Assembly (NCBI GenBank): GCA_002709295.1
Contig: PAQL01000012.1
Location: forward strand, 281,328 to 317,896
From: Phycisphaerae bacterium
GTDB lineage: Bacteria; Planctomycetota; Phycisphaerae; Phycisphaerales; SM1A02
DNA: 36,569 bases
Reading direction: 5' to 3'
The stretch's first letter is position 1; each line of letters starts with the position of its first letter. Shown one piece after another: positions 2,972 to 20,313 of this stretch. The position numbers and the translations under genes are program-made. The notes below the pieces were generated by a model. That model was not told where the DNA came from. It ran no database searches and was given only the letters and a program-made list of their open reading frames with translations.

Positions 2972-4366
2972 CTAGCGAAACGTCTCGCGCAGCACCACGT
3001 CGGGAGCTCGCGAGAGCATGTCGATCAGGCCCCGGATCGCCGCCCCGCGTCCGCGGCCCAGCTCCGCGAGCGTCTCGAGCAGCGCGTCGGCGATCAGATC
3101 CGCCTCCGACTCCCCGATGACCAGGGGCGGGACGATCTTGATGACCGAACTCGACTTGGCGGTGGACTGCACGAGGATGGCGTGCGTCTCGAGCATGCGA
3201 AGAGCCACGGCCTGGGCCACCAGCGTCGGAGTGCGTGCCCCGAATCCCGGAAGGTCGAAGGCCATCGCCGCAGGGTCGAGTTCCACGCCGATCATGAGTC
3301 CCCGACCTCGAACCTCGCGGATCCCCGTCGCCCAGCCCGAATCGGTCTTCAATCCCGCGGTGATCCGCCGCCCGAGTTCCGCCGACCGCCGCACCAGATC
3401 CTCGTCCTCGAGGACCTGGAGGGTCGCGAGACCCGTGACCATCGCCAGCGGATTCTCCCGGAAGGTCGAGGAATGGACGACGGAACGTTCCACGGAGTCG
3501 AACACCCGATCGAAGATCTCCGTCCGACCGATCACCGCGCCGACCGGAACCGTGCCCGCGCTCAACACCTTTGAGAGACAGACCAGATCGGGCTCCACGC
3601 CCTCCTGTCGACTCGCCAGCGTCGCCCCGGTCCTCCCCAGCCCGGTCTGAACCTCGTCGGCCACCAGCAGCGTTCCCGTCTGGCGACAGATCTCCGCAAC
3701 CTCCTGAAGAAGGCCCGACTCGTGCTCCACGACTCCCTTGCCCTGGATGGGCTCGTAGAAGAACGCGGCGATGCTCCGGTCCTCGAGGGTCGTGCGGAGC
3801 GCCTTCAGGTCTCCGAAGGGCACTTCACGGCAGCCGGGGACCAGCGGCCGGAAGCCGCGTCGCAACCACTCCGAGCCGTTGAGGGAGAGGGCTCCCATCG
3901 TGAGACCGTGAAATGCGTTCGACCAGTGCGCGAACCCGGGCCGGCCGGTGGCCGCGCGGCAGATCTTCATCGCGGCCTCGACCGATTCGGTTCCGCTGTT
4001 GACGAAGAAGACCCGGTCTTCGGTCCGATCGACGAATCGCTTCAGCCGATCGGCGAGTGCCACCGCCAGGGGAGGGACCTCGAACTGGATCAGACCCGGC
4101 AGTCCCGCGGCGAGCACCTGCTCGAGGGCCTGGCGGATCACCGGATGATTCCTGCCCACCGCGAGGCAGGCGTAGCCGCCGATCGCGTCGAGATGCCTCC
4201 GTCCCGAATCGTCGATCAACCAGGGACCGTGTCCCTCGACGAACCGACGATCGAGCCCCGTCAGTCGGAGGAGGTCGTGGAAACGGGGATTGAGATGCGC
4301 GACATCCTGCGCCGTCGGCTTTCCGCCGTATGCATCGATAATGGACTGAAGGTCGAATCCACCCAC
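2972..4366 (-). CDS. Class III PLP aminotransferase (ornithine/acetylornithine-type)
   Basis: The 464-residue protein shows the fold-type I class III signature: SGTES (124-128) for phosphate binding, ADEVQTGLGRTG (236-247) with the cofactor aspartate, and the Schiff-base lysine K266 in LVCLSKVLSAG. Length and motifs fit ornithine, acetylornithine or putrescine-type omega-aminotransferases; the substrate cannot be read from sequence. The start is a GTG at 4366, only 5 nt after the stop of the upstream secreted gene, so the pair is an operon read away from the pigment-like cluster. No good SD precedes it, consistent with coupling. A role in the adjacent biosynthetic cluster is possible but unsupported. 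The gene converges on the CPBP-like gene with a 24-nt gap. Confidence 0.8.
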   Translation of the reverse strand: MGGFDLQSIIDAYGGKPTAQDVAHLNPRFHDLLRLTGLDRRFVEGHGPWLIDDSGRRHLDAIGGYACLAVGRNHPVIRQALEQVLAAGLPGLIQFEVPPLAVALADRLKRFVDRTEDRVFFVNSGTESVEAAMKICRAATGRPGFAHWSNAFHGLTMGALSLNGSEWLRRGFRPLVPGCREVPFGDLKALRTTLEDRSIAAFFYEPIQGKGVVEHESGLLQEVAEICRQTGTLLVADEVQTGLGRTGATLASRQEGVEPDLVCLSKVLSAGTVPVGAVIGRTEIFDRVFDSVERSVVHSSTFRENPLAMVTGLATLQVLEDEDLVRRSAELGRRITAGLKTDSGWATGIREVRGRGLMIGVELDPAAMAFDLPGFGARTPTLVAQAVALRMLETHAILVQSTAKSSSVIKIVPPLVIGESEADLIADALLETLAELGRGRGAAIRGLIDMLSRAPDVVLRETFR

Positions 4367-4371: not shown

Positions 4372-5163
4372 TCAGTCTCCGCGACTCACCTTTCGCAGCA
4401 CGCCGGCATGCGCGGTGTCGTCGTTGAAGAAGAGGAAGGCCGAGATGTCACGGTCGTCGGAGAACGCGACCGGACCGGTTCCGGGAGCGACGAAGAGCAG
4501 TCGGGAGCCGTCGACCGAGGCCGGCCCCACGCTTCCCTTGTAGTGGACCCGGAGAAGGCGGGCCTTGAACTCGCCGGCGGGGACCTTCACGCGGAATCCC
4601 CCGAGATCCCGCCAGGTGCATCGCGCGGTTCCGGAGTACTCGACGTCGTCGGGCGAACCGAGATCACTGACCGAGATCCTGATGTCCTCGGGCGGAACAT
4701 CGGATCCGACCGGATGCACCACCGGTTCCGGAGGGTCCAGCTTGATCAGCAGGCCGTTGGGGTGGTTGACCGTGAACTGCGACTGGATCACGCCGTCCTT
4801 GTCGAGGGAGAGAAACCGGGTCGTTCCGTTGGACTGGACGAGCGTCCAGCCCTTGATGGACTTGTCCAGACCCGGCACCTTCTTCGCCGGCGTGATCGTC
4901 CACCGGGTCGTGCGATCCCCGTCACCGGTACGGTCGAAGACGAAGTCGACCTGGGACAGCGGAAGCCAGTCCCTGGCCTCCTTCAACGGCGGAAGATCCT
5001 CGGCTCGCCCCACCACCACGCCGGGCAGGTGCTTCCTCAGCTGGTCCGCCACGGCACTCGGAAGCCCCTTCAGCGGATCATCGGAAGAAGTCGACGCCAT
5101 GGACTGCCCGACCAGAAAGAGTGCAATCAGGGCGGCAGCGATCTGACGTGGGTGTGAAAGCAT
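4372..5163 (-). CDS. Secreted protein of unknown function
   Basis: The ATG at 5163 is chosen because it gives a signal peptide (hydrophobic stretch about residues 9-21, predicted cleavage after SMA) and because a TACCAT hexamer lies exactly 6 nt upstream. The mature part (about 235 aa) is probably beta-rich. A C-terminal stretch with VKVPAGEFKARLLRVHYKG followed by LLFVAPGTGPVAF recalls the VPAGxF...YAPGxGxV pattern of periplasmic DUF3108-like proteins, but this is weak. The proteobacterial pigment clusters carry a LolA-like periplasmic carrier; I see no LolA motif here, so that equivalence is only a thought. It is divergent from the glycosyltransferase at 5195 with 31 nt between the starts. 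Confidence 0.6.
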   Translation of the reverse strand: MLSHPRQIAAALIALFLVGQSMASTSSDDPLKGLPSAVADQLRKHLPGVVVGRAEDLPPLKEARDWLPLSQVDFVFDRTGDGDRTTRWTITPAKKVPGLDKSIKGWTLVQSNGTTRFLSLDKDGVIQSQFTVNHPNGLLIKLDPPEPVVHPVGSDVPPEDIRISVSDLGSPDDVEYSGTARCTWRDLGGFRVKVPAGEFKARLLRVHYKGSVGPASVDGSRLLFVAPGTGPVAFSDDRDISAFLFFNDDTAHAGVLRKVSRGD

Positions 5164-5194: not shown

Positions 5195-6280
5195 ATGCCC
5201 GACGACACCCGCACCAACTTCGATGTCGACCGCCCCGCCACGGCGATCCTCGTTCCCGTCTTCGAAAACGCAGGAACCATCGAATCCGTGGTCCGCGCGT
5301 GCGCGGATACCGGCGTGCCGGTGTTCGTGGTCGATGATGGTGGCGAAGACGGGTCGGTGGAGATCGCATCGTCGCTCGCGGAGGAGGGACTGGTCCGGGA
5401 GGTCGTCCGGTGTCCTCGCAATCTCGGCAAGGCCGGCGCGCTGCGTCTCGGGTTCCGTCGACTCCGGGAGCTCGGTTTCGACGTGGCGATCTCGGTGGAC
5501 GCCGACGGCCAGCATGATCCGGACTCGATCCCTCCGCTCCTTCGAATCGTCGAGGACGAACCCGATGCCCTCGCACTGGGCTGTCGCTGGCCGCTGCATC
5601 CCGACCAGCCCCGCCGGAATCTGATCGGCCGCTTCTTCTCCAACGTCGCCATTCGCGCCCACTGCGGCATCGCGATCGGAGATGCCCCCTGCGGGTTCCG
5701 GGCCTGGCCGCTGCATGATGCCGTCGAGGTGCGCGGTCTGAGCGGGCGCTACGCATGGGAGCAGGAGATGATCTCCCTGCTGGCATGGCGCGGCGTGCCG
5801 ATCCGGCAACTCGACATCCCCGCGATCTATCATCCGCGCGAGACCAGGATCAGCCACTACCGATTCGGACGCGACTGGCCGGAAGGCATCGCGATCTACC
5901 TCTGGCTGCTGCTGGTCGCCCTGATCCCGATGCCCCTCGGAGGGTGGCGGGGCATCCGACGCGGCTGGCTGCGACGCTTCGACCGACTGCTGTCTCCCGG
6001 GCGGCTTCGAGGTCGACGGCCCGAGACCCGGACCGACCGGATCTTCGTGATCCTCTCCCTGCTGATCGGGCTCCCGGCGGGGCTCCTCCTTCCGGCATCA
6101 CCCTGGACCGCCGGGACCGCCGCGTGGATCGGATGGCGATGGCACGCCGGATTCGGAGCGATCGCCCTCGCGACCATCCCGTCGCTGGAGTCGATGCCGG
6201 CGACGGCATCCTCGATTCCCTGGGTCGCGACCTTCGGGGTCGCGTGGGTGATCAGCGGCTTCGTTCGACCGCCTCGTTGA
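5195..6280 (+). CDS. Membrane-anchored family 2 glycosyltransferase
   Basis: The N-terminal GT-A domain (about 14-225) carries the nucleotide-sugar motifs DDGG (47-50) and DADGQHDPD (102-110), as in DPM1/DPG-synthase-like GT2 enzymes, which move a sugar from a nucleotide donor to a lipid carrier. The C-terminal part has hydrophobic segments near 231-247, 283-300, 310-328 and 340-356 joined by a very basic loop (251-281), so it sits in the inner membrane. ATG 5195 is preferred over ATG 5162 because the latter falls inside the divergent start region. GT2 proteins of this type are regular members of aryl polyene/xanthomonadin clusters. The last 29 bases overlap, tail to tail, the end of the acyl-ligase gene, so the transcripts are partly antisense. 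Confidence 0.8.
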   Translation: MPDDTRTNFDVDRPATAILVPVFENAGTIESVVRACADTGVPVFVVDDGGEDGSVEIASSLAEEGLVREVVRCPRNLGKAGALRLGFRRLRELGFDVAISVDADGQHDPDSIPPLLRIVEDEPDALALGCRWPLHPDQPRRNLIGRFFSNVAIRAHCGIAIGDAPCGFRAWPLHDAVEVRGLSGRYAWEQEMISLLAWRGVPIRQLDIPAIYHPRETRISHYRFGRDWPEGIAIYLWLLLVALIPMPLGGWRGIRRGWLRRFDRLLSPGRLRGRRPETRTDRIFVILSLLIGLPAGLLLPASPWTAGTAAWIGWRWHAGFGAIALATIPSLESMPATASSIPWVATFGVAWVISGFVRPPR

Positions 6281-7733
6281 GGTCGGCGGCTTCCTGAAGT
6301 CGACCACGAAGCATCTTTCCCGTCGCGGATCGAGGCAGTTCGGAGACGAATCGAATCACCCGCGGACGCTGGTGGGCGGGAAGCAGTCGTCGAGCCTCGT
6401 CTCGGACGGCGGTCTCGAGTCCGGTCCGGTCCCGGTCGTCCTCGGGAACCACCACCGCCATCACCCGGGTCACGGTCTCGGTGAGATCCACCGGCACCAC
6501 CGCGACCTCCCGGACGCCCGGCGTGCCGCCCAGCGTCCTCTCCACGTCCTCGGGGTTGACCTTCAGACCTCCGACATCGAACTGCAGCTTCGCTCGCCCG
6601 GTGATCCTCACCCGGCCGGAGGCGTCGATCTCCCCGAGGTCTCCGGTGCGGAGGTGTCCGTCGACCCTGCGGCCCGGATCCGGTTCGACGTCGCAGCGAT
6701 CGAGATAGCCCTTGAACATCGCATCGCTTCGAACCACGATCTCCCCCGCTCCCTCTCGACGCATGCGCGGCGTGGCGGAGGGATCTTCGGGGTCGATCAC
6801 GCCGATCGAGACTCCGGGGACCGGAGAGCCGTCGTCATCGACGCCCCAGGTGATGGTGCCGATCTCGCTCATGCCGTAGAGGTCGCCCACCGGCACGTCC
6901 CATGCGGCCCTGAATGCTTCACGAACCCCGGAAGGCAGTCGGGTTCCGGCCGTGTAGGCCAGTCGAAGAGCGGTTCCTCTCCTTCCGACCCGTGCCGCCG
7001 CCTCGAGGGTCACCGGCACCGCGGGAAAGACGGTCGTGTCCTCGAGCAGGGCGTTGGCACCCGCCATGAGGTCGAAGCCCGCCTTGAAGGCGACCGACGC
7101 GCCCGCCAGCATCGGAGCGAACACGCCGTGTTCGATCCCGTAGGCATGCTGCATGGGGATCGTGGCGAGGACACGATCCTCCTCGCCCAGTTCGAGCACC
7201 TGCACGAGAGTCGAGGCGACCCTGTCGATCGCCGGCGCCTCCCGGAGAACGACACCGGGACGACCCGTGGTCCCGGAGCTCCGAAGAAGCAGGCTCGACC
7301 GGCCGCCCCGATCGAGAGTGTCCCGTCCGCCATTCCACGGGGTCGTGTCGAGATCCACGACCGAACGCGGGAGTCCTTCCGGCGGAGAGGACCAGCAGGA
7401 GGTCGGATCGGTCTCGACGACCGCGGCGACGCGATGAGAGTCCACCAGCGAGGCCCGGTCCGCATCGGTGACGTCCGGACCCACCGGCAGAAGACGACGG
7501 CCGCTTCCCAGCACCGCGATCAGACCCGCCCAGTACCCCGCTCCGCCCGGTCCATGCAGAAGCACCGTCGCGTGTCCGGACACCTCCCGATCCAGCCACT
7601 CCGCCAGTCGGAGGGCCGCGCCAAGGATCTCTCCACGAGATCGCGATCGGCCGGCCTCGACCTCGATCACCGACTGCCGCCCGGGTTCGCGACGAGCCGA
7701 AAGACGGAATGCCTCGATCAGTGCGACTGCCAT
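6252..7733 (-). CDS. Acyl-adenylate-forming ligase (aryl-ACP loading, ApeH/XanA2-like)
   Basis: A 493-residue ANL-superfamily enzyme. Visible core motifs are SSGTTGRPG (152-160), YGMSE (286-290), TGD (363-365), the hinge and GGLKVNPEDVE (388-398), and the catalytic lysine K473 in RSATGKMLRGR. The usual lysine of the P-loop (TGxPKG) is replaced by glycine, which is unusual but lies in a mobile loop. In aryl polyene pathways the homologous ligase activates the aryl acid and loads it onto the carrier protein; the neighbouring chorismatase and ACP support that role here. It is the last gene of the minus-strand run; its ATG lies 16 nt inside the end of the flavoprotein gene. Confidence 0.8.
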   Translation of the reverse strand: MAVALIEAFRLSARREPGRQSVIEVEAGRSRSRGEILGAALRLAEWLDREVSGHATVLLHGPGGAGYWAGLIAVLGSGRRLLPVGPDVTDADRASLVDSHRVAAVVETDPTSCWSSPPEGLPRSVVDLDTTPWNGGRDTLDRGGRSSLLLRSSGTTGRPGVVLREAPAIDRVASTLVQVLELGEEDRVLATIPMQHAYGIEHGVFAPMLAGASVAFKAGFDLMAGANALLEDTTVFPAVPVTLEAAARVGRRGTALRLAYTAGTRLPSGVREAFRAAWDVPVGDLYGMSEIGTITWGVDDDGSPVPGVSIGVIDPEDPSATPRMRREGAGEIVVRSDAMFKGYLDRCDVEPDPGRRVDGHLRTGDLGEIDASGRVRITGRAKLQFDVGGLKVNPEDVERTLGGTPGVREVAVVPVDLTETVTRVMAVVVPEDDRDRTGLETAVRDEARRLLPAHQRPRVIRFVSELPRSATGKMLRGRLQEAADLNEAVERSR

Positions 7734-9088
7734 GAGGGCTCGCCAATCCGTCTCCGCGGGACCGCACGGCTCACCCCCGCGTTCGGGGACGGCAGCCCCA
7801 CTCCGCCGGACTGGAGCAGCGAGTGCGGACGGATGCGTTCATTCAGCGGACGGAAACGGTTGAACTCGCGAAGGCCCTTCATGAGATCCCACCGCCATCG
7901 CACGGAGAAGGGAACCTTCCGAAAGACCTCGCCGGCAAGCATGTTCACCACCGCACGGTGGACCCCGAGGGGACCGTCGCCTCTGACGATGAGCTCCCGG
8001 AATGAATGGTCGTAGAAGTTCCGGATGAGGTTCATGAAGGTCCCACGCAGTCCGGAGATCCGTGCATGGTGCGCCCGTGTGGCGGCACGCGGGCGCATCC
8101 TGCCCGCGGCGACGTCGAGAATCCGTCGCGCCGCATGGACGCCGCCCTCGAGGCCGAGACTCACTCCGGTGGACCAGACCGGGTCGATGAACGCGGCGGC
8201 GTCACCGACCATGAACCATCCCGCATCCGCGTGTCGATCACAGGTGTAGGAGAAGTCGCCCACGACCTGGTTGCGATCGGGCCCGGTGGCATCGGACATC
8301 CGCTGGGCCATGGCCGGACAGTTCTCGAGGCACCATGTGAGACGCTGGTCGGCGGGGACCGGGATCGACTTCGACAGTTCACCGTCGATGACCGCCCCGA
8401 TGCTCGTGGTCTTCTCGTCGATCGGAATCAGCCAGAACCAGCCTTCGCGGCACATTGCAAGGGTCGCGAAGCCGTCCCGATCGCCGGAGTTCCGAAGCAC
8501 GCCCTCGTAATGTTCGAAGTAAGAGACGTTCCGAAAGCCCGGAAGGAACCTCTTCGTGCCGAGATGCCGGGCGAGCACGCAGGCCTGACCGCTGGCGTCG
8601 ATGACCCAGTCGGCACGAAGTCGGCCGCCGTCGAGGGTCATGCGGACATCGCCGTGCTCGATGCTCTCGAACGTCCTGACGCTCTCGCCGAACCGGTAAC
8701 GGGCTCCCGCCTCGGCTGCGGCATCCGCGATCATACGGTCGAAGATCGACCGGCGGATGTTGAAGGTCTGCTTCAACCCGTCCCCGAACATCTCCTCGAA
8801 GGAGATCGCGGCGGGTTCCCGGCGTCCGTCGCCGAACTCGATCTCGAGGCCGCGCTTCACCATGTGCGGCAGCGAGCGCACCCGATCCATCAGATCGAGT
8901 TCCTCCATCAGTCTCTGGGCGTGGGGCAGCATCGACTCCCCGATCCGGAAACGGGGGAACTCGGTCTTGTCGATCACCACGACGTCGAGACCCGCCCGGG
9001 CGAGCTCGAGGGCCGCGACGCTTCCCGCGGGTCCCGCTCCGATGATCGCGACATCGCATCGATCGTCCGACTCTGAGCGGGCGATCAT
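7718..9088 (-). CDS. Flavin-dependent halogenase-like FAD oxidoreductase
   Basis: Starting at ATG 9088 the product is 456 aa. An upstream in-frame ATG at 9148 is less likely because 9088 forms an ATGA overlap with the chorismatase stop. GAGPAGS (17-23) is the FAD Rossmann motif, WFWLIP (217-222) fits the WxWxIP signature of flavin-dependent halogenases, and GDAAAFIDPVWSTGVSLG (295-312) is the second FAD-binding segment. K78 in MVKRG lies after GESMLP, where halogenases acting on carrier- or phenol-bound substrates have their catalytic lysine. Xanthomonadins are brominated aryl polyenes and their cluster contains a homologous flavoprotein, so ring halogenation is plausible; a desaturase/oxygenase role remains possible. 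A flavin reductase is not encoded nearby. Confidence 0.75.
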   Translation of the reverse strand: MIARSESDDRCDVAIIGAGPAGSVAALELARAGLDVVVIDKTEFPRFRIGESMLPHAQRLMEELDLMDRVRSLPHMVKRGLEIEFGDGRREPAAISFEEMFGDGLKQTFNIRRSIFDRMIADAAAEAGARYRFGESVRTFESIEHGDVRMTLDGGRLRADWVIDASGQACVLARHLGTKRFLPGFRNVSYFEHYEGVLRNSGDRDGFATLAMCREGWFWLIPIDEKTTSIGAVIDGELSKSIPVPADQRLTWCLENCPAMAQRMSDATGPDRNQVVGDFSYTCDRHADAGWFMVGDAAAFIDPVWSTGVSLGLEGGVHAARRILDVAAGRMRPRAATRAHHARISGLRGTFMNLIRNFYDHSFRELIVRGDGPLGVHRAVVNMLAGEVFRKVPFSVRWRWDLMKGLREFNRFRPLNERIRPHSLLQSGGVGLPSPNAGVSRAVPRRRIGEPSWQSH

Positions 9089-10038
9089 CGCGAGTCTCCG
9101 ATCGGAGCCCGGTTCGAACTCCCCCTGCAACCGGGAAAGGCGGCGCATTCGATCTCGACGAGGAGTTCCGGTCGGCAGAGCCGCTGCTGGCGGATCTCGA
9201 CGACCGCATCCGTGTCCCGGACCAGTGCCGAGATCTCGTCACTCAGCCGTTCGGAGAAGCGGATCTCCGGGAGGTAGATCAGCCAGTCGTCCATCACCGA
9301 GAGATCCGTGCCGGGCCAGGCCCGCTCGACGATGACCTCCAGGTTGCGGAAGGTCTCCTCGAGTTGCGCGACGAAGTCGTCGTGGACCGATGCCTCTCCG
9401 ACCACGCTCGCCGTCCCGCTCACCAGAAGGGCGTCGGCCCCGGAGATCTCGAGCAGGCACGCTCTCGCGAATGCCGGCGGCGGATCGCCGTAGAGATCCG
9501 AATAGTCGTCGGGCCTTATCTGCCGGGGGTTGTCCACCACCCGGGGCGACTTCTCTCCATGCAGGAGATGGATGACCAGGTCGTCCCCGGCATGCCCGAC
9601 CCCGGAGGCGACCGGATAGCGGACCGTCGATCCATGAACATCGGAGAAGCCCCGGTGGCGACCGGCGTTGAACGACATGTAGCGGTCGCGATCGACGCCT
9701 CCCTCGGAAGCGTCGTCGTTGATCCTTGGAATGAAATTCCAGGCCCGCCAGAGGCGATCCGCATCCAGTCCGTCGAGGACGGTTCGATATGCCTTCCGGG
9801 TCTCCTGCTCGAACTCGGACGGCGTCATCGATGCGGCATCCCGCACCCGCACGCAGCGATGGCCGCCGGTGATGCACGAGGTCTCGCCGGCGTCACCGAA
9901 CAGCTGTCCCGCCCAGGCTGGAAGATCGGAGACCGCACCGGTCGCCGCCCATCCACCGTCTGAGTGATCGCTTCCGAGGGCCGCTTCCGGAGAGGAGGCG
10001 ACCACGACACCCGGTCTGTCCTCGGAGTCTCGGTGCAT
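9085..10038 (-). CDS. Chorismatase (XanB2/Hyg5/FkbO-like), hydroxybenzoate-forming
   Basis: The 317-residue product matches the chorismatase/pteridine-dependent dioxygenase-like family. Motifs include RAWNFIPRIN (98-107), RYMSFNAGRHRGF (119-131), NPRQI (170-174), SGTASVVGE (207-215) and CRPELLVEIE (288-297), in the family order. These enzymes hydrolyse chorismate; subfamilies give a dihydroxy-cyclohexadiene acid, 3-hydroxybenzoate, or 3- plus 4-hydroxybenzoate (XanB2). I cannot assign the subtype. In this operon it most likely makes the aryl starter unit. ATG 10038 lies 2 nt after the ketosynthase stop; an ATG at 10077 with GAGG upstream would add 13 residues and overlap the ketosynthase. It overlaps the flavoprotein gene by ATGA. 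Confidence 0.85.
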   Translation of the reverse strand: MHRDSEDRPGVVVASSPEAALGSDHSDGGWAATGAVSDLPAWAGQLFGDAGETSCITGGHRCVRVRDAASMTPSEFEQETRKAYRTVLDGLDADRLWRAWNFIPRINDDASEGGVDRDRYMSFNAGRHRGFSDVHGSTVRYPVASGVGHAGDDLVIHLLHGEKSPRVVDNPRQIRPDDYSDLYGDPPPAFARACLLEISGADALLVSGTASVVGEASVHDDFVAQLEETFRNLEVIVERAWPGTDLSVMDDWLIYLPEIRFSERLSDEISALVRDTDAVVEIRQQRLCRPELLVEIECAAFPGCRGSSNRAPIGDSR

Positions 10039-10040
10039 CT

Positions 10041-12227
10041 TCAGGATGATATCGACTGGATCCCCACGCTCCCGCATCCACCCGCCTCATCCCGGGCGAT
10101 CACGGTCGCGGGATTCGATTCGGTGATTGCAGCCGCGATCTGGAGCATGGGCTGGACCGAATGCCGCTCGAAGAGGTCTCCCATGCTGCAGGGGCGCCCC
10201 TTCGCCACGCGATCCACGAGACGGTCTCCGGGTCGACCCCGACCCGAATCCGCCCCGCTGATCCGGAGCGGCCCCTCCTCGGCGGCCAGCGTCGCGGCGA
10301 GCGCATCCGCGGCCCCCCTCCAGTCCGAGGTCTCCGGCCACGAGATCGACGTCGAGGCGAGGTGCGCAAGGCCCCGGCGGCCCCGATCGGCCGCGGACGA
10401 TCGACTTTCGAGCAGGAACGCCACCGCCCCTTCGGCACACGGGCGATCGTCGAGCAGACGCAGTCGCTGCAGCACCGTTCGCACCCTGGGATGCGTCTCT
10501 TCCGCCGCCACCACGATCGCACGATCCGCCTGACCGCTCTGAAGATGACGTCGAGCCAGATGCATCGCCTCCAGGCCGGCCAGTCTCGTGCCCGAGGTGG
10601 ACAAAGTGAAGCCCTCGATGCCAAGTCCCAGACTCAGCTGGGCACTTCCGATGTTGGGAACGCTTTCCGCGAAGTGAAGTGGGTTCCCGGCGCCGAGCCC
10701 TTCCCGAATCAACTCCTCGTAGTAGTCGAGGGTGTACTCGGCGGCACCGAAACGGGTGCCCACGAAGGCGGCGGCGGATCGAACCATCGATTCGTCGAGC
10801 CCCGCACTCTCGACCGCAAGACGACCGGCGGCCCGCACCAGCCTGGCGAAGCGGGCGAGTCGTCGAACCGCACGCGGCTCGTCCAGACCCTCGAGGGCCG
10901 CGTCATCGATCATCCGTTCCCCGGGCCTGATCTCCTCGTCTCCGTCGGGTATCAGCACCCCCACCCCGGTGACGACCACGTCCTCGATCTCGTCGACGAC
11001 GGGCAGCATGGCGGTCGCCGGTGGGGATGCCTGCGACGACTCCACGCAGATCGCGGCATCCGCACCGCCGAAACCGAGGGAGACGACCAGACCGCGCTCG
11101 ATGGTCGCCTCGCGGGATTCGAGCACCAGATCGAGATCCGGAAAGGAGTCCGCATCCGGCACCGCGTTGGCGGCCGCGGGGATCCTCCCTCGTTCCATGG
11201 CGGCGATCAGCACCGCAAGCTCGATCGAGCCGGCCGCGGCGAGGGTGTGTCCGATCCGGCTCTTCAGAGCCGTGACCGGGATCTCACGAAGCTTCGGTCC
11301 GAACACCTCCGCCATGGCCTGATACTCCGCCGCATCGTTCGCCGGAGTCGAGGTGGCATGGGCGATCACCAGGTCGGGCGTCTCCACCGCGGCGGAACGC
11401 ACCGCTCTCGCCGCTCCGCGACCATCCGGGGCCGGCTGGGTCAGATGATGCGCATCACTGGCGGCACCCCAGCCCAGGACACGAGCGAGCGGAACCGCGC
11501 CGCGGGCAGCGGCACCGGAGGCCCGCTCGAGGACGAACACGCCGTATCCCTCGCCGACCCGCATCCCCTCGCGGTCCGCGGTGAAGGGCCGAAGCGGACC
11601 CTCGGCCACCAGGCGGAGACAGGAGAAACCGGCGAACGCGAATTCGCTGATCGGGTCGTAGGAGACCGCGATCACGATGTCGGCCTCGCCCAGCAGGATG
11701 GCGGTGGCACCGAGAGACATCGAGGAGACCCCGGACGCGCACGCGGCGGAGATGGTGCTGCCACCCAGCGCGATACCGGTCCCCTCGAGAGCGTCTCGAT
11801 TCACGGTGGCGGTCAGGGTCCGGGCGTAATCCCCCATCGCGTCGTTTCGAATGGCATGACCCAGATGCCGCATGCCCCCCAGGGTCGTTCCGAAGACCGC
11901 CTCCACCGTGGTGCCCGCGGCCCGGAGTTCCTCGATCACCGCGGGTTCGAGTCCCGCCTCCCGAAGCCCGGCGCCGATCACCCCGCGGATCCCGGTCTCC
12001 GCCCGATCGGGCTCCCCGCCGGACAGCGGTTCGGACTGGGCCGCCCGGACCACCCGATCGTCCTCCGGCGGGAACGATCCCTCGATCGCAGGCGCCTCGT
12101 CGATCCCGACCCGGTCCTGAAGCATCGCCTCGAGAATCGCGCGTCGATCCGTTCCCAGCGAACAACATGCCGCGGCGGCGGTGATCACCACGCCATCGTC
12201 GCCGGATTCGATCTCGTTTCCGTTCAT
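10041..12227 (-). CDS. Ketosynthase fused to a cysteine-less ketosynthase-like (CLF-type) half
   Basis: A single 728-residue polypeptide with two thiolase-fold halves. The first (about 10-398) is a complete elongating ketosynthase: active-site Cys163 in SAACASG, His290 in AHATSTPAND, Lys322 and His327 in KSRIGH, and the C-terminal GFGGADA. The second (about 415-728) restarts with DVVVTGVGVL and runs through SVPNIGSAQLSLGL to TLSTSGTRLAGLEA (541-554), where the nucleophile position is Gly546 rather than Cys; the later histidine motifs are also not recognisable. This is the arrangement of KS plus chain-length factor, which in aryl polyene systems are separate subunits. The frame has no internal stop or obvious start at the junction. 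Its ATG overlaps the dehydratase stop (ATGA). Confidence 0.85.
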   Translation of the reverse strand: MNGNEIESGDDGVVITAAAACCSLGTDRRAILEAMLQDRVGIDEAPAIEGSFPPEDDRVVRAAQSEPLSGGEPDRAETGIRGVIGAGLREAGLEPAVIEELRAAGTTVEAVFGTTLGGMRHLGHAIRNDAMGDYARTLTATVNRDALEGTGIALGGSTISAACASGVSSMSLGATAILLGEADIVIAVSYDPISEFAFAGFSCLRLVAEGPLRPFTADREGMRVGEGYGVFVLERASGAAARGAVPLARVLGWGAASDAHHLTQPAPDGRGAARAVRSAAVETPDLVIAHATSTPANDAAEYQAMAEVFGPKLREIPVTALKSRIGHTLAAAGSIELAVLIAAMERGRIPAAANAVPDADSFPDLDLVLESREATIERGLVVSLGFGGADAAICVESSQASPPATAMLPVVDEIEDVVVTGVGVLIPDGDEEIRPGERMIDDAALEGLDEPRAVRRLARFARLVRAAGRLAVESAGLDESMVRSAAAFVGTRFGAAEYTLDYYEELIREGLGAGNPLHFAESVPNIGSAQLSLGLGIEGFTLSTSGTRLAGLEAMHLARRHLQSGQADRAIVVAAEETHPRVRTVLQRLRLLDDRPCAEGAVAFLLESRSSAADRGRRGLAHLASTSISWPETSDWRGAADALAATLAAEEGPLRISGADSGRGRPGDRLVDRVAKGRPCSMGDLFERHSVQPMLQIAAAITESNPATVIARDEAGGCGSVGIQSISS

Positions 12228-12661
12228 GACTGCGATCCGGAGAGACTCACCGCGACCGCGCCGATCACCGCGGTTCTTCCATCCACCTCGGAAGTGAAGT
12301 CGTAACGATGGATCGTGCCCATCGAGCGGTCGAACCGGACCGAGACCTCGATGGTCGCGGGCGGAACCACCGGCTGCTTGAATCTCGCCTCGTGCATGAC
12401 CAGCATTCCCGCCCCGTCGCCACCGAACCGGCGATGGGCGGACGCTCCCGCGAGCTGGGCCGCGGACTCCACCAGAAGGACCCCCGGCACCAGCGGACGT
12501 CCGGGGAAATGGCCGCGGAAGAAGTCCTCCTCGCCGGTGGGACTCCAGACGCCGCGGCCACCCTCGTCATCGAGATGATCGATGCGATCGAGAAAGCGGA
12601 ACGGATCCCCGTGAGGAAGGGCCAGGAGCGCCGCCTCGAATGATGTCGTCTCCTGATCCAT
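12224..12661 (-). CDS. FabZ/ApeP-like 3-hydroxyacyl-ACP dehydratase
   Basis: A 145-residue single hot-dog domain. LPHGDPFRFLDRI (15-27) and HFPGRPLVPGVLLVESAAQ (51-69) are the FabZ-type motifs, with the catalytic histidine at H51 and the acid at E65. It would dehydrate 3-hydroxyacyl-ACP intermediates to give the conjugated polyene. The length equals a typical FabZ. ATG 12661 shares one base with the stop of the acyl carrier protein (TGATG), and the stop overlaps the ketosynthase start, so ACP, dehydratase and ketosynthase are translationally linked. The matching 3-ketoacyl reductase is not in this window. Confidence 0.85.
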   Translation of the reverse strand: MDQETTSFEAALLALPHGDPFRFLDRIDHLDDEGGRGVWSPTGEEDFFRGHFPGRPLVPGVLLVESAAQLAGASAHRRFGGDGAGMLVMHEARFKQPVVPPATIEVSVRFDRSMGTIHRYDFTSEVDGRTAVIGAVAVSLSGSQS

Positions 12662-12921
12662 CAATCCTGCCGAAGTTCGCCGACGAAGTCCACGAAGGCA
12701 CCGATGGTCCGCATCGTGTCCGGACCGAGTCGATCGTTCGGGATCTTGATTCCAAGCCGCTTCTCGGTCCCGGTCACCACCATCAGCAGGTCCAGTGAAT
12801 CGAGTCCGAGCTCCTCACCGACCATCGGGGTGTCGGGAGTGAGCTCCATCGATCCGAGCTTGAGATCGGTTCGAAGGACGTCGCAGACGATGTCGTAGAG
12901 ATCGGTTGATTGATCCGGCAT
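12661..12921 (-). CDS. Acyl carrier protein
   Basis: An 86-residue acidic protein with the carrier signature GEELGLDSLDLLMVV; the phosphopantetheine site is Ser42 in GLDSLD. The ATG at 12921 is chosen by analogy with other ACPs; an in-frame ATG at 12945 would add eight residues and overlap the permease stop. There is no clear SD for either, consistent with translational coupling to the permease. It would carry the aryl starter and the growing polyene. Proteobacterial aryl polyene clusters usually have two ACPs, whereas only this one is seen here. No phosphopantetheinyl transferase is encoded nearby. Confidence 0.85.
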   Translation of the reverse strand: MPDQSTDLYDIVCDVLRTDLKLGSMELTPDTPMVGEELGLDSLDLLMVVTGTEKRLGIKIPNDRLGPDTMRTIGAFVDFVGELRQD

Positions 12922-12935
12922 GTCGGTATTCGATT

Positions 12936-14213
12936 TCACCGCCATCGGGCGATTGCGAGTCGGGCCCCGACGAGACAGACCACGGTGGTCGCGACGATGA
13001 CGCCGATCGCCGGAGCGATCCGTCCGAGCATCGCCCCAAGGGTGTCGTCGGGCGTGGTGTACCAGAGTACCTGTTGCAGGGCCGTGATGGACCTTGCATT
13101 GAAGGCCCATTCCCCGATTGCCTTGAGGGAGGACGGCATCAGGAAGGTCGGAATCATGCTCCCACCCACCGCGCTGAGCACGAGGACGGTGATCGTGCCG
13201 ATCGTCGTCTGTTGCCTCCGGGTTCTGGCCAGACCGGTGATCAGCATTCCCAGGCCCGCGGCCCCCGCGGCCACCACCGGAACGAGAATCGCAAGGGACA
13301 CGAGCTGCCGGACGGAGAAGAAGCGCACGTCGAAGGCCGCCGCGGCCCAGGCCAGCATCACGATGATCTGCACCACGCCCACGGCGATCGCGAAGAGGAA
13401 CCGGTTCAGAACCATCGACCACGCACCGATGCCGGAGGCCCGAAGCCGATCCAGAATCCCTCGTTCGTGTTCCTCGAGCAGCCAGCCGGTGGTCGACAAG
13501 GCGCTGAAGAGCATGAACATCACCCCGATCGCGGCGGTGTAGTAGGTGACCAGCGACGGAGCCCCCTGACCGACCTTCACCTCCGTGGAATCGATCGGCA
13601 CCTGCGCTGATTCGGCGATCCTTCCGATGGCCCCGGCGAAATCGGCATCCTCCTGCCCGGTCGCGGGAGCGGACTGAAGCGATCGTGCGAGTCCCTGCTG
13701 TCTCGGGGTCAGTGGTCCGGCCACCATCTCGAAGACCCTGATCTCCCGGCCGAGCAGCTCCGCGGCGAGGCCCTCCCACGCGGAGGCCGCCAGCACGCCG
13801 CGGGCGAACTCCGGCGCGATGGGGTTCGCACGATCGAATCGGATCTCCAGCGGCCTGATCGCCCCCCCCGGATCGCGAAGCGACTCGCCGAATCCCTTCG
13901 GGACCACGATCCCGGCCGGATACTCGCCACCCGCGATCAGCGTGTCGATCGCCTCGGGCTGATCACCGGTGACGGAGACCAGATCGATGCGGCTGGCCGA
14001 TCTCGCCGCCTCGACCAGTCGCCCGGATGCCTCGCTCCGATCGAGATCGAGCAGGGCCACGCGGACCTTGTTCTCCCCGTTCCGGCCGAATCCTCCGAAC
14101 ACCGTGGCGAAGATCGACAGGAAGACGATCGGCACGATCGCGTAGAGCCCGAGACCGAGGCGGTCGCGGCGCAGTGTGATCCAGGCCATTCGAAGCAGTG
14201 CCAGACGTCTCAT
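12936..14213 (-). CDS. ABC-2 type transporter permease
   Basis: A 425-residue protein with one N-terminal membrane segment (about 19-41), a large extracytoplasmic domain (about 48-225) and a cluster of membrane segments at the C-terminus (from about 228). This is the layout of the larger ABC-2 permeases (YhgE/YbhR-like) that export lipophilic compounds. EEHERGILDRLRASG in the cytoplasmic coupling loop is typical of the family. Its partner is almost certainly the ATPase at 17220-18179, the only ABC ATPase in the window and part of the same operon. The ATG overlaps the stop of the LPLAT gene (ATGA). It is the likely exporter of the pathway product. Confidence 0.8.
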   Translation of the reverse strand: MRRLALLRMAWITLRRDRLGLGLYAIVPIVFLSIFATVFGGFGRNGENKVRVALLDLDRSEASGRLVEAARSASRIDLVSVTGDQPEAIDTLIAGGEYPAGIVVPKGFGESLRDPGGAIRPLEIRFDRANPIAPEFARGVLAASAWEGLAAELLGREIRVFEMVAGPLTPRQQGLARSLQSAPATGQEDADFAGAIGRIAESAQVPIDSTEVKVGQGAPSLVTYYTAAIGVMFMLFSALSTTGWLLEEHERGILDRLRASGIGAWSMVLNRFLFAIAVGVVQIIVMLAWAAAAFDVRFFSVRQLVSLAILVPVVAAGAAGLGMLITGLARTRRQQTTIGTITVLVLSAVGGSMIPTFLMPSSLKAIGEWAFNARSITALQQVLWYTTPDDTLGAMLGRIAPAIGVIVATTVVCLVGARLAIARWR

Positions 14214-15148
14214 GCGGCACTCTCCACGGCGACCCCGGGAGCGGGATCCGCATCACGCCAGACCGGATGGACGTTCAGCCATTCGGTGGGCCGTTCGCGG
14301 ATCACGGTCTCCATCTTCTCGACCCATCCCCGCACCGCGGAGTGATTGCCCGGATCGCCGCGAAGGTCGCCCTCCATCGAGAGCGGTGCATCCATGCGCA
14401 GCGCTAGGCCACCCCCCGGCATTCTCCAGTTGAAGACCGGAACCACCAGGGCTCCGGTCGATTCGGCGAGCTTGAACGGACCGATCGGAATCTCCATCCT
14501 CCGACCGAAGACCGGAACCGGGGTTCCCCGCTGGCCGGGCTGGACGCGATCCGCGAGCAGAGCGACGACCTCGCCCCGGCCGAGCACGTCTCTCAATCCC
14601 GCCCAGGTGCCTAGACCGTCGTCGACCGCATGGCCGACCACCCCGAGTCGTCGTCGGGCCCGGGTCCGCATCCGCTCGAGAGTCCCGATGGAATCGCGGT
14701 GATAGAGCACGTGGATCGGAACGTGCTTCCCGATGTAGGCGGCCGCGGGCTCGAACTCTCCCATGTGCATCGAGAGCAGGACGATGCCTCGACCGCTCCG
14801 GTCGCTGAAATGTCGACGGAACTCCGTGAGTCCCTCCACCGATTCGAGCCGGTCGAGGAGCCGGTCCGTCGGCATCCGCGATGCGACGGCGATCCCCTCC
14901 ATGTATCGCTGCATGCTTTCGAGGACCCCGCGACCGTAGGCGTCGAGTGCCGCGGGATCGGCATCGGATCCGAGAATCACCCGCCCGTTCTCGATCAGGG
15001 ACTCCCGCCAGCCCGTCGCCCGCTTCCAGGTCTGCGCCACCATGGTCGGCCGCAGTCGGGTCGTGATCCAGGGTGCGTGCGCATATCCCCTCAGCAGGAG
15101 GGACACCGCGATGCGTTCGGCCAGAGGCGTCCTCTTCCGGTCGCTCAT
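14210..15148 (-). CDS. LpxL/HtrB-type lysophospholipid acyltransferase
   Basis: With ATG 15148 the product has 312 residues, the usual size of lauroyl/myristoyl acyltransferases. SMHMGEFE with H128 and E133 supplies the HxxxxE/D catalytic pair, and later segments (VVALLADRVQPGQRG, GTPVPVFG, GALVVPVFNW) follow the family order. In aryl polyene clusters members of this family attach the polyene acyl chain to a lipid or sugar-lipid acceptor, in place of a lipid A acyl chain. The acceptor here is unknown. It starts 17 nt after the PlsC-type gene, the largest gap in the run, and its stop overlaps the permease start. Confidence 0.8.
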   Translation of the reverse strand: MSDRKRTPLAERIAVSLLLRGYAHAPWITTRLRPTMVAQTWKRATGWRESLIENGRVILGSDADPAALDAYGRGVLESMQRYMEGIAVASRMPTDRLLDRLESVEGLTEFRRHFSDRSGRGIVLLSMHMGEFEPAAAYIGKHVPIHVLYHRDSIGTLERMRTRARRRLGVVGHAVDDGLGTWAGLRDVLGRGEVVALLADRVQPGQRGTPVPVFGRRMEIPIGPFKLAESTGALVVPVFNWRMPGGGLALRMDAPLSMEGDLRGDPGNHSAVRGWVEKMETVIRERPTEWLNVHPVWRDADPAPGVAVESAA

Positions 15149-15165
15149 GCCTCGTTCCGCATCTT

Positions 15166-15927
15166 TCACGAGACGACTTCCACTTTCGCATCCTCGGTCC
15201 GAGCGTCTGCCGAATCCTCCTCCGGGACTTCCGGAGCCAGCCGGGTGATCGCCTCCCGAAGCCGTGCGGTGAAGGCCGCGGCGGACTCGTCCTCCTCGGC
15301 GTGAAGAGGATCTCCGAACGCGATTCTCAGCGGACCCGCCTGCGGCCAGCGCACTCCGGGCGGAAGCACGGAATCGGTGCCGTCGACGTGGGCCGGAATC
15401 ACGGGAAGCCCGTGACGTCGCGCGAGTTCCGCGGCCCCATGTCGAAATCGTCCCATGCGACCGGAACGGGACCGCGTGGCCTCGGGGAAGACCACCAGGC
15501 TCCAGCCGTCGACGAGCATCGCGTCGATCCGGTCGATCTGGGAGTACTCGCCGCCCTTGCGTTCGATCAGGAGGACGTTCATCGCGCTTCTGATGAACCA
15601 GATGACCACGTTTCTGAAGAGACGCTCCAGGAACGGCTGGGAGGACGTGGCTTCGAAGTAGTCGAGTCCCCCGACCGTCGCGGTCCGGCTCCGCCGGTCC
15701 CCGGGAATGGCGAGGAAGAGAACCGGGGTGTCGACGAGACTGTTGTGGTTGGCCACCACGATCGACTGTCCGAGAGCCTCGAAACGCTCCCGCCCGATCA
15801 CGTGGATGGGGACACGGCAGACCACCTTTCCGGTGTCGTGCAGGAACCGGAGGATGGTTCGAGCCAGCACCCGACTCGGCCATGAGACCGGAACCTTGAA
15901 GCCGGCGATGTCGCTGGATCGCGTCAT
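15166..15927 (-). CDS. PlsC-type 1-acyl-sn-glycerol-3-phosphate acyltransferase
   Basis: A 253-residue enzyme with the PlsC motifs NHNSLVD (60-66, NHxxxxD catalytic pair) and FPEATRSRSG (147-156, the acceptor phosphate site, usually FPEGTRS). Membrane-associated hydrophobic stretches flank the first motif. It may acylate a glycerol-phosphate or another hydroxyl acceptor. A second acyltransferase of this superfamily next to an LpxL type is common in aryl polyene/xanthomonadin-like clusters. ATG 15927 overlaps the stop of the lipoprotein gene (ATGA). The C-terminal tail after 225 is acidic and poorly structured. Confidence 0.8.
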   Translation of the reverse strand: MTRSSDIAGFKVPVSWPSRVLARTILRFLHDTGKVVCRVPIHVIGRERFEALGQSIVVANHNSLVDTPVLFLAIPGDRRSRTATVGGLDYFEATSSQPFLERLFRNVVIWFIRSAMNVLLIERKGGEYSQIDRIDAMLVDGWSLVVFPEATRSRSGRMGRFRHGAAELARRHGLPVIPAHVDGTDSVLPPGVRWPQAGPLRIAFGDPLHAEEDESAAAFTARLREAITRLAPEVPEEDSADARTEDAKVEVVS

Positions 15928-16496
15928 GGGATCTCGTCCCCGAGATCGGATTGCTCGGCCGCCCGCGCCCTGCGGATCCGGGATCGATCGAGCGCGGTCC
16001 CCATCGCGAACCGCACCCGGGTCTCGGGTCGATCGACCTCGAAGCGTGCCGATTCGAACTTGGGACGGGAGAGAAGGATCGAGATGTCGTTGGAGAAACC
16101 CCAGGGCTCGACCGGAAGACCGATGATGTTCCTGGTGAGGGTCTCGTCCCTCTCGATGTCGATGAAACCCGAGACCGCGGTCGGTATCGCCGGGACGTCC
16201 TCGAACACGATCCGGGTGATCGGGCAGGTGACCGGAACCGTCACGCCCTGAACCCATTGATCGACCTCGAGGAAGGACTCCGCGGACTGGTAGACCGCGA
16301 TATAGAGCATCTCCCCTTCCCACTTCGGTGTCTCGACCTCGACGATGAGGGTCATGGTCTCGCTCGGATCCGGCCCGCCGGAGTGGGCGGTCTCGGGTGC
16401 CGTGGCGCATCCGACCAGGGTCGAGACCATCAGAGTGACGATTGCGAACACGGTTCGCCCCGCCGGCATCCATCCGGTCGTGTGCGGCTCACGCAT
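15924..16496 (-). CDS. DUF2141-family lipoprotein
   Basis: A 190-residue protein with a lipoprotein signal peptide: a hydrophobic stretch 14-29 and a lipobox LVGC with Cys30. The mature part follows the DUF2141 pattern: an N-terminal beta strand set, LYIAVYQSAESF, and a conserved C-terminal block in which IGLPVEPWGFSND resembles the family consensus (IPxExYGFSN). DUF2141 proteins are small beta-sandwich exported proteins of unknown function. Placement in the pigment-like operon suggests handling of the exported product at the outer face of a membrane, which is inference. The start overlaps the methyltransferase end by 8 nt, and the stop overlaps the PlsC start. Confidence 0.7.
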   Translation of the reverse strand: MREPHTTGWMPAGRTVFAIVTLMVSTLVGCATAPETAHSGGPDPSETMTLIVEVETPKWEGEMLYIAVYQSAESFLEVDQWVQGVTVPVTCPITRIVFEDVPAIPTAVSGFIDIERDETLTRNIIGLPVEPWGFSNDISILLSRPKFESARFEVDRPETRVRFAMGTALDRSRIRRARAAEQSDLGDEIP

Positions 16497-17223
16497 CGGG
16501 GACCTCCGCACGGAACTCGCCCAGAAGTCCACCGGCGGGTCGGTACTCGACCTCGACGAATCCGGCTGCATTCATGCGATCGACGACGACCTCGGGGGAT
16601 TCGAACGAGGATATCGATTCCCAGAAGTGGCGCATCAGATCACGAACCGAGGCGTCGCCGCAGAGAACCCCCAGCAACGGGGCGCCGAACCAGTGGGCCA
16701 GACCTCCTCCGATTCGACGTCCCATCCGACTTCGTGGAACGATCATCTCGAGCAGGACCACGCGACCGCCGGGGACCACGACCCTCCGGATCTCCTTGAG
16801 GGCTGCATCCAGATCATTCGCATAACGGATCGCATATCCACTCACCAGGGCATCGAAGCAGGCGTCGCCGACGGGGATCGAATCGAAGGAACCCTCCCGC
16901 ACGTCCCTGACCCCCGCCTGTCGCGCGAGCTCCCGCATCTCCGGGCACGGATCGACCGCGACGATCGAGGGGGAATCGGGAAGATAGCGCTGGGCCGCGA
17001 CGGACAGTGCTCCGGTTCCGGTCCCCACATCGACGACCCGGGCGTCCGATGGAAGTTCCAGCGAGAGGATCGTCCTTCGCCGATACCAGTTGCTGGTTCC
17101 CAGACTGGCCAGCATGTTCACACGGTCGTAGCGATGTGCGGAACGTGCGTAGAGCTCCATCACATCGCGGTCGATGCCGGGGCTCGATCGCTTGAAATCA
17201 TGATCGACGGCGGAAGCGTTCAT
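16489..17223 (-). CDS. UbiE/COQ5-like SAM-dependent methyltransferase
   Basis: A 244-residue class I methyltransferase. Motif I is VVDVGTGTGALS (63-74), followed by an acidic loop (VAVDPCPEM) and a post-motif IRRVVVPGGRVVLLEM, typical of ubiquinone/menaquinone C-methyltransferases. The N-terminal YARSAHRYDRVNMLASLG matches the UbiE-type entry helix. In this context it probably methylates the aryl ring or its hydroxyl, as methyltransferases do in other aryl polyene clusters; a quinone substrate is the alternative. ATG 17223 overlaps the ATPase stop (ATGA). Confidence 0.8.
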   Translation of the reverse strand: MNASAVDHDFKRSSPGIDRDVMELYARSAHRYDRVNMLASLGTSNWYRRRTILSLELPSDARVVDVGTGTGALSVAAQRYLPDSPSIVAVDPCPEMRELARQAGVRDVREGSFDSIPVGDACFDALVSGYAIRYANDLDAALKEIRRVVVPGGRVVLLEMIVPRSRMGRRIGGGLAHWFGAPLLGVLCGDASVRDLMRHFWESISSFESPEVVVDRMNAAGFVEVEYRPAGGLLGEFRAEVPDA

Positions 17224-18179
17224 TCCCGGAGCCCCCTTCCCGTCAATCGGAGAAAGACCTCTTCGAGACTCGCTTCGTGGAGTCGCACTCCCTCGATGCC
17301 GCCCGGAATGGACTCGAGGGTCCTGATCGCCGACTGCAGTTCGTCGCCGAGGCCGGACAGCGGAACCCGGATCGATCGGCCGTCCCATTCGCCGATCGGC
17401 GGCTTGAAATCCTCCCCGACCGTCTCCCGCGGCCGCGCCGTGATCACGAAGGGCGAGATGCCCTGGGCCTCCGCGAGAGCCTCGGTCTGACCGCGAGCGA
17501 CGATCCTTCCGTGATCGATGATCGCGACGGAGTCGACCAGGGACTCGGCCTCCTCGATGAGGTGGGTGGCATGGAGAATCGTGGCTCCCTCCTTCTGGAG
17601 GTCGCCGATCATCCTCCAGATCGCCACCCGAGCCTGGGGATCGACACCCTCGGTCGGCTCGTCGAGCAGCAGAAGCCGCGGCTTGTGCAGCACGCTCACC
17701 GCGAGATTCAATCGACGCTGCATGCCGCCCGAATAATGGCCGACGAGATCGTCCGCCCGGTCGGCGAGCTGGCTGAAGTCCAGAGCCCATGCGACGCGGT
17801 CTCGACGATCGGATCCCGGCACCCCCAGGAGATCGCAGTGAAGCTCGAGATGCTCCCGGGCCGTCATCGCATCGTGCAGCGCGATCTGCTGGGGCACGAA
17901 ACCGAGTTCCGAGGCGCCGGGTCTTCCCCGGCCGAAGGCCGAGATGATCCCCTCGTCCTCGCGGATCAACCCCGCGATGCATCTCATCAAGGTCGTCTTG
18001 CCCGCACCGTTGGGACCGAGCAGGGCCGCCCACTCGCCCGCATGGAGCTGGAAGTCCACGCAATCAAGGGCCTGCAGCCGACCGAAGGCGCGACGCACTC
18101 CCGACACCTTGAGGGCCGGCGTATCCGACGGTTCCACGGGAGGAGAACCTCCGACTTCGACTCGTACGGCGCCGGGCAT
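17220..18179 (-). CDS. ABC transporter ATP-binding protein
   Basis: A 319-residue ATPase of the ABC-2 export type. Walker A is GPNGAGKT (55-62), the signature is YSGGMQRRL (149-157), Walker B is LLLLDEPTEGVD (169-180), and the H-loop is HATH. After the nucleotide-binding domain there is a C-terminal extension of about 90 residues, ending in LEEVFLRLTGRGLRE, the tail usual for drug/polysaccharide/lipid-export ATPases such as CcmA/DrrA types. Partner permease is at 12936-14213. The ATG shares one base with the stop of the upstream fusion gene (TGATG). Confidence 0.85.
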   Translation of the reverse strand: MPGAVRVEVGGSPPVEPSDTPALKVSGVRRAFGRLQALDCVDFQLHAGEWAALLGPNGAGKTTLMRCIAGLIREDEGIISAFGRGRPGASELGFVPQQIALHDAMTAREHLELHCDLLGVPGSDRRDRVAWALDFSQLADRADDLVGHYSGGMQRRLNLAVSVLHKPRLLLLDEPTEGVDPQARVAIWRMIGDLQKEGATILHATHLIEEAESLVDSVAIIDHGRIVARGQTEALAEAQGISPFVITARPRETVGEDFKPPIGEWDGRSIRVPLSGLGDELQSAIRTLESIPGGIEGVRLHEASLEEVFLRLTGRGLRE

Positions 18180-20188: not shown

Positions 20189-20231
20189 GCTGGGCTCCTG
20201 CCCGGTGGAGAGAGCGATTTCCGACTCGCCG

Positions 20232-20261
20232 ACGCTATCGGAAGATCGTCCCCGCCCGCAA
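20232..20261 (-). promoter_or_regulatory. Candidate promoter of the long minus-strand operon
   Basis: On the minus strand TTGCGG (20261-20256) and TAGCGT (20237-20232) are separated by 18 nt. The start would fall near 20225, leaving a leader of about 37 nt that contains the AGGAG of the NagB/PIG-L gene. Match to consensus is moderate, and the assignment rests on position. Confidence 0.35.
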
Positions 20262-20307: not shown

Positions 20308-20313
20308 CCATTG

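Follow-up and report, generated by a model that had tools for sequence, protein, structure and literature searches.

A likely variant of the xanthomonadin/aryl polyene pathway, with ketosynthase and chain-length factor predicted in one chain, in Phycisphaerae-type planctomycetes

A 36,569-nucleotide stretch of a Phycisphaerae bacterium genome (contig PAQL01000012.1 of assembly GCA_002709295.1, positions 281,328 to 317,896; here called the window) carries a biosynthetic gene cluster that probably encodes a Phycisphaerae-type planctomycete version of the type II polyketide pathway for xanthomonadin/aryl polyene (APE) pigments. Judged from its sequence and a structural model, the ketosynthase (KS) of this cluster is a KS joined in a single chain to a chain-length factor (CLF)-like half of about 310-330 residues. 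The cluster appears to work like a xanthomonadin/APE pathway, but we stop short of classing it as a full member, as neither a ketoreductase (KR) nor LolA or MMPL was recovered from the window.

Results

We sampled 301 genomes from the order and obtained chorismatase matches in 37, the host's own among them; the surrounding regions from 32 of the other 36 genomes were examined. In these same-order regions, the chorismatase was accompanied by KS-CLF (28 regions), ligase (28), dehydratase (29), acyl carrier protein (ACP; 27) and LpxL-type acyltransferase (27) matches, and by halogenase-like (21), ABC permease (12), LolA (14) and MMPL (12) matches. Since the set is conserved around the chorismatase, the grouping of these genes is unlikely to be due to chance. 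The original prediction for this DNA had named a lack of co-occurrence of the gene set in related genomes as part of its refutation, and this neighborhood comparison shows wide co-occurrence instead. A set of named loci, from the best 80 of 323 confirmed relatives and sorted by record title, comprised 43 from planctomycetes (mostly Phycisphaerales/Phycisphaerae metagenome-assembled genomes [MAGs]), 11 from Betaproteobacteria, 12 from Acidobacteriota, 5 from Myxococcota and 9 from other sources, two of which (L134 and L137) hold planctomycete-type clusters. Because 19 of the 32 same-order regions duplicate records in the named set, the two sets are not additive. A dehydratase was found in 32 of the 43 named planctomycete loci. 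Three loci, L137, L146 and L132 (Chitinophaga pinensis, Singulisphaera and Phycisphaera mikurensis MAGs), hold the same cluster type as differently labelled loci, and their labels may be wrong or loose. Across the wider phylum, chorismatase matches occurred in 49 of 392 sampled genomes and were mostly weaker; among eight such regions examined, only L172 contains other cluster-type genes. L172, from a genome of another class of the phylum (G389), has KS-like, halogenase-like, ligase and MMPL matches at its chorismatase locus.

The 728-residue ketosynthase open reading frame (ORF; 10041..12227, minus strand) matched the Pfam ketoacyl-synthase model in two stretches, and Pfam, alignments, a tree, AlphaFold and Foldseek together assign residues ~1-400 to a KS and ~410-728 to a CLF-like half. 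In an alignment of 22 planctomycete homologues, Cys163, His290 and His327 of the KS half were invariant. In the CLF half, arginine occupies the cysteine position and both histidines are lost, so that the catalytic triad is gone. This arginine is also found in six of seven other planctomycete CLFs aligned, with valine in the seventh, and E. coli ApeC likewise has arginine at this position. The AlphaFold model of the whole protein (pLDDT 87, pTM 0.91) had as its best Foldseek match the KS-CLF didomain of PfaC (6riw; E 1.7e-41, TMq 0.76, rmsd 7.7, 16% identity). For the KS half alone, FabF, FabB, ishigamide and actinorhodin KSs were tied among the 50 rows of a VIA-align comparison. This comparison mostly covered the KS half, and the ApeO/ApeC structure entry, 6QSP (PMC8358021), fell outside the 50, which is uninformative.

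Both halves were found in 37 named planctomycete loci and 27 same-order loci, and in every one of these they share a reading frame, with some of these frames running to the end of the available sequence; in L119, L140 and L048, both halves lie inside one ORF. One or both halves were not found in six named and five same-order loci. Outside planctomycetes, KS and CLF are separate in the APE-type loci compared, occupying their own frames in five betaproteobacterial, three myxococcal (CLF frames of 248-260 amino acids) and five acidobacterial loci. Because the KS precedes the CLF in these loci too, the planctomycete gene probably arose through fusion of neighboring genes. The fused CLF half matches three acidobacterial CLFs. 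In L172, two KS-like matches lie ~1 kb apart, possibly an unfused version within Planctomycetota.

We placed the KS in a tree of 46 sequences, in which the characterized references were E. coli FabF, FabB, ApeR and ApeO, other type II polyketide synthase (PKS) families were absent, and one planctomycete sequence (L113) was left out for want of the cutting motif. A 99/98 split puts the cluster KSs of planctomycetes, betaproteobacteria, myxobacteria and acidobacteria on one side with ApeO. FabF, FabB, ApeR, the host's three other KSs (one on a long, unsure branch) and four more sequences are on the opposite side. Thus, the window KS sides with the Ape-type enzymes and is set apart from ApeR, FabB and FabF, including the FabF of the host, as opposed to the clustering with housekeeping FabF that the original prediction had named as part of its refutation. 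The nearest relatives of the window KS are from Phycisphaera or Phycisphaerales, and the branching order of the planctomycete KSs, ApeO and the acidobacterial KSs is unsettled in this tree. The predicted placement of the KS in the APE class thus excludes fatty acid synthesis (FAS) but does not weigh all rival type II families. In a ligase tree, the window ligase grouped with other planctomycete ligases, apart from FadD, EntE and MenE; the E. coli Ape ligase sits on a branch of ~5 changes per site, too long to place. Elsewhere in the host genome (L163, C10:30000-45000), a class-II DAHP synthase gene has two adjacent KS genes (5312-9571 of the locus) immediately downstream of it. Both KSs are on the side of FabF in the tree and may mark a second aromatic or polyketide locus.

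The chorismatase (9085..10038, minus strand) belongs to the FkbO/Hyg5 family by Pfam, where it is over the cut-off, and by alignment with Hyg5, and scores below the cut-off of NCBIfam TIGR04444 (100.7 of 325 bits). It has Gly221, Cys301 and Glu308 (numbering of the 330-residue ORF 9085-10077), which align with Hyg5 Gly240, Cys327 and Glu334 and are invariant in 18 planctomycete chorismatases; FkbO has alanine at the first two positions. Such residues have been tied to 3-hydroxybenzoate formation (PMC7170507); our matching of Gly-231 and Cys-318 of that paper to the Hyg5 numbering assumes a uniform offset of 9. Gly-164 fails to separate Hyg5 from FkbO in our alignment, and chorismatase products have been described as not accurately predictable from alignment alone (PMC3949708). 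We regard the enzyme as the predicted source of 3-hydroxybenzoate.

The neighboring flavoprotein (7718..9088, minus strand; Pfam Trp_halogenase) keeps GxGxxG and carries WFWLIP. GxGxxG and WxWxIP are motifs of flavin-dependent halogenases. WFW[LMI]IP occurs in 19 of 20 such proteins, including that of the window, and the twentieth is truncated. The five best solved matches were all named halogenases or alkylhalidase.

For export, the window cluster carries an ABC transporter (ATPase and ABC-2 permease), while sister planctomycete loci carry LolA and MMPL (13 and 10 of the 43 named planctomycete loci, respectively) and in some cases a polysaccharide deacetylase. The two systems avoid each other. 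In the 43 named loci, LolA/MMPL and the ABC permease occurred together in none, LolA/MMPL alone in 14, the permease alone in 18 and neither in 11 (Fisher p 6e-5); in the 32 same-order loci, the corresponding numbers were 1, 13, 11 and 7 (Fisher p 0.003). Both p-values ignore shared ancestry and truncated contigs. Because of this avoidance, it is likely that one lineage swapped its export system. We considered an MMPL match situated 6-9 kb outside the left end of the window as a missing exporter and rejected it, since it is AcrB beside HlyD and OEP genes. Two protein families of ~250 and ~550 amino acids (L044:6006-6761 and L045:2512-4161) are conserved in planctomycete clusters of the LolA/MMPL type, and their scanned members had no Pfam match at 0.001.

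The cluster consists of 12 minus-strand genes extending from 18179 down to 6252. As the gaps between them are only -16 to +17 nucleotides, they probably form one transcription unit. Gene types were taken from Pfam and NCBIfam scans, and gene limits and start codons were picked by us. The first gene encodes a DrrA/NodI-like ABC transporter ATPase (17220..18179; Pfam ABC_tran, with NCBIfam drrA the best match, below cut-off), whose ATG overlaps the stop of an upstream NagB/PIG-L gene by 1 nucleotide. It is followed by genes for a UbiE-type methyltransferase (16489..17223; Pfam Ubie_methyltran), a DUF2141 protein (15924..16496; Pfam DUF2141, 8.1e-18) of a family with 10 members counting this one, a PlsC-type acyltransferase (15166..15927; Pfam Acyltransferase), an LpxL/PIM-type acyltransferase (14210..15148; Pfam Lip_A_acyltrans), the ABC-2 type permease (12936..14213; Pfam ABC2_membrane_3), an 86-residue ACP (12661..12921; Pfam PP-binding, the sole match at 0.001 in the host genome) and a FabZ-like dehydratase (12224..12661; Pfam FabA, 8e-19). 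After the KS-CLF, chorismatase and halogenase-like genes, the operon ends with an AMP-forming acyl/aryl ligase (6252..7733; Pfam AMP-binding and tree). A GT2 glycosyltransferase gene on the plus strand (5195..6280; Pfam Glycos_transf_2) converges on the operon and overlaps the 3′ end of the ligase gene by 29 nucleotides. The limits of the cluster, 5195 (GT2 from its second start) and 18179 (ABC ATPase start), coincide exactly with those originally proposed, and every gene type named there was found in its place by Pfam. Beyond these, we found the two KS-like domains of the ketosynthase ORF, the DUF2141 gene within the operon, and a hypothetical gene and a class-III aminotransferase gene after the GT2 gene.

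The conserved hypothetical protein (4372..5163, minus strand) has an N-terminal hydrophobic stretch and no Pfam match. It is confined to close relatives (alignment of six), and its association with the cluster is uncertain; a structural model made to check for a LolA-like fold was of low confidence (pLDDT 47.5). The aminotransferase (2972..4366, minus strand; Pfam Aminotran_3 and synteny) occurs together with GT2 in 13 of the 32 same-order regions, and among NCBIfam models it comes closest to prodigiosin PigE (396 of 850 bits). On the other side, the NagB/PIG-L fusion gene (18179-20320) abuts the operon start, keeps this position in close relatives and may share the transcript. A TPR-sulfotransferase gene (19954-21807) lies upstream of the cluster, with homologues near the cluster in three same-order loci.

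Discussion

We propose a route in which the enzyme families identified here would carry out the following inferred reactions. The chorismatase would make 3-hydroxybenzoate from chorismate, and the AMP ligase would load it onto the ACP. The fused KS-CLF, its halves acting as an intramolecular heterodimer, would extend this starter repeatedly with malonyl units, and a double bond would be formed from each unit by the FabZ-like dehydratase together with a KR whose gene lies outside the cluster. Changes to the aromatic head may be the work of the halogenase-like flavoprotein and the UbiE-type methyltransferase. Attachment of the acid to an anchor, either a lipid or a sugar, would fall to GT2 and the two acyltransferases (LpxL and PlsC type), all three present by Pfam as expected for anchoring. 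The product would cross the inner membrane through the ABC transporter, which would stand in for the MMPL/LolA system of sister loci and proteobacterial APE clusters. Taken in full, the proposal is quite possible but tentative: a KS and CLF covalently joined as a pseudo-heterodimer would build a halogenated aryl polyene primed with 3-hydroxybenzoate, with the help of an out-of-cluster KR, and one lineage would have given up the MMPL/LolA route to the outer membrane for an ABC exporter, so that its pigment would end up at another site or on another anchor. A polyene product and membrane anchoring are what we infer, and we do not assert the polyene mainly because no source of beta-keto reduction was found in the planctomycete loci examined. 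Thus, the membrane-anchored aryl polyene-like pigment of the original prediction stands in part: KS placement and co-occurrence favor it, but neither "membrane-anchored" (the window has an ABC transporter instead of LolA/MMPL) nor "polyene" (the cluster has no KR) is supported.

A number of observations weigh against membership in the xanthomonadin/APE class. The planctomycete KSs form their own deep clade (100/100), and a tblastn search with E. coli ApeC at 1e-4 did not pick up the planctomycete KS-CLF ORFs. The residue at the cysteine position is N, D, Q, G or E in CLFs from Myxococcota, Betaproteobacteria and Acidobacteriota, and the glutamine that is essential in the Lysobacter CLF (PMC3691225) is not at the corresponding place in the window protein. 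No thioesterase was found in the window operon by Pfam. The flavoprotein scores far below the NCBIfam CmlS halogenase cut-off (164 of 900 bits) and could be a monooxygenase; because of this score, halogenation is a guess from sequence. The KS scores highest for FabF models in NCBIfam, although below cut-off, and solved FabFs are its best sequence matches among structures, as would be expected if the locus were an ordinary lipid-modification operon (LpxL/PlsC/GT2/ABC) with housekeeping FAS-like genes. We consider such an operon highly improbable, as the host's own FabF and FabG lie elsewhere (C12:16790-18726), the tree separates the window KS from FabF, and the chorismatase is rare in the order. 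The top Foldseek match to the PfaC KS-CLF, together with weak NCBIfam matches to cispentacin AmcB/E/F/G, could instead mean that fatty-acyl lipid synthesis has co-opted a relative of the polyunsaturated fatty acid (PUFA)-synthase KS-CLF, or one of a different small type II system such as that for cispentacin, and that the chorismatase has a separate role. This is very unlikely: the AmcE, AmcF and AmcG scores (36.3/140, 154.2/325 and 18.6/80 bits) are far below cut-offs, no malonyl acyltransferase (AT) or PfaA-type module was found in the operon by Pfam, and the chorismatase adjoins the KS-CLF in many loci.

LolA and MMPL were not found in the window cluster by Pfam, and LolA had no match at 0.001 in the host genome, which is 95% complete. 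With seven KR queries at E 1e-3, and loci of ~10 kb or less on each side with many contigs cut, an SDR-type KR was not found in the window, nor in any of the 43 named or 32 same-order planctomycete loci. SDR/KR matches were present in 7 of 11 betaproteobacterial, 3 of 12 acidobacterial and 3 of 5 myxococcal loci, with one myxococcal match best to FabG. The default candidate for a KR acting in trans is the host's own FabG, which sits beside FabF (C12:16790). In vitro, FabG of A. baumannii was unable to substitute for ApeQ (PMC8041823), and of the host's 15 SDR matches, the 12 included in a quick tree with many long branches did not join the APE KRs. The lack of a KR in the planctomycete loci examined and the failure of FabG to replace ApeQ in that one in vitro system also suit a type II PKS that starts from 3-hydroxybenzoate and makes a short or unreduced/partly reduced aromatic lipid, with the FabZ-like protein doing another step. 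We regard this as unlikely, since the dehydratase, which needs a hydroxyacyl substrate, is conserved (32 of 43 named and 29 of 32 same-order loci), sister loci hold LolA and MMPL like polyene clusters, and a FabG is present in the host genome. We favor a variant of the xanthomonadin/APE pathway.

The original prediction had also considered such a pathway in Planctomycetota to be undescribed. Our searches of open-licence papers turned up no account of this cluster, its fused KS-CLF or its missing KR, and descriptions in some of those papers or in subscription journals are possible. The claim is only partly right, as antiSMASH counts of one "arylpolyene" cluster each have been published for Phycisphaera mikurensis (PMC8882080) and one other planctomycete genome (PMC11588811), both given without a cluster description in the available text. 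A survey of KS-CLF pairs includes Planctomycetes among its phyla (PMC10132072). In a 2025 review, planctomycete colors are traced to carotenoids, and "aryl" and "polyene" are absent from its available text (PMC12078418). A conserved second pigment pathway would give planctomycetes a shield against light and oxidants, as shown for Lysobacter (PMC3691225). The natural KS-CLF fusion would be a single-chain tool for studying how CLF sets chain length, and the exchange of exporters between sister lineages would be a natural experiment on pigment destination. With no KR in the cluster, the system would also make it possible to ask directly if a polyene PKS can work with housekeeping FabG.

Among known systems, celluxanthene, an arylpolyene alkaloid (PMC12144888), was considered as a relative and rejected, as it is made by a type I PKS. 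A fused KS-CLF as such is already known from PfaC of PUFA synthases, the best fold match, which like the window protein has KS and CLF in one chain. PfaC differs in sequence (16% identity), and the window operon has no Pfa-type partner genes. Pfa systems are multidomain synthases. The E. coli CFT073 ape cluster shares with the window a KS and an inactive CLF with arginine at the cysteine position, as well as ACP, dehydratase, ligase, methyltransferase, GT2 and acyltransferase functions. Only the ape cluster has a KR, a thioesterase, two ACPs, a second KS (ApeR), LolA and MMPL, and, unlike in the window, a chorismatase or halogenase is not annotated in it. Five of the Acidobacteriota chorismatase loci have a KS frame and, right behind it, a separate CLF-like frame, in contrast to the window fusion; some have MMPL, polysaccharide deacetylase or GT2, and three of the 12 have an SDR/KR match.

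The xanthomonadin/arcuflavin clusters of Xanthomonas, Lysobacter and Azoarcus are from a different phylum. Compared to these clusters, the window has KS and CLF as one protein, no KR, an ABC transporter instead of the LolA/MMPL that sister planctomycete loci do have, and an additional aminotransferase and DUF2141 protein. Common to both are a XanB2/Hyg5-family chorismatase, an AMP ligase, an ACP, a KS and CLF-like protein, a dehydratase, acyltransferases and a glycosyltransferase (PMC3949708, PMC3691225). With the arcuflavin cluster, the window further shares a halogenase (halogenase-like in the window) and a methyltransferase (PMC3949708, PMC3691225), and some sister planctomycete loci share its polysaccharide deacetylase (PMC3949708).

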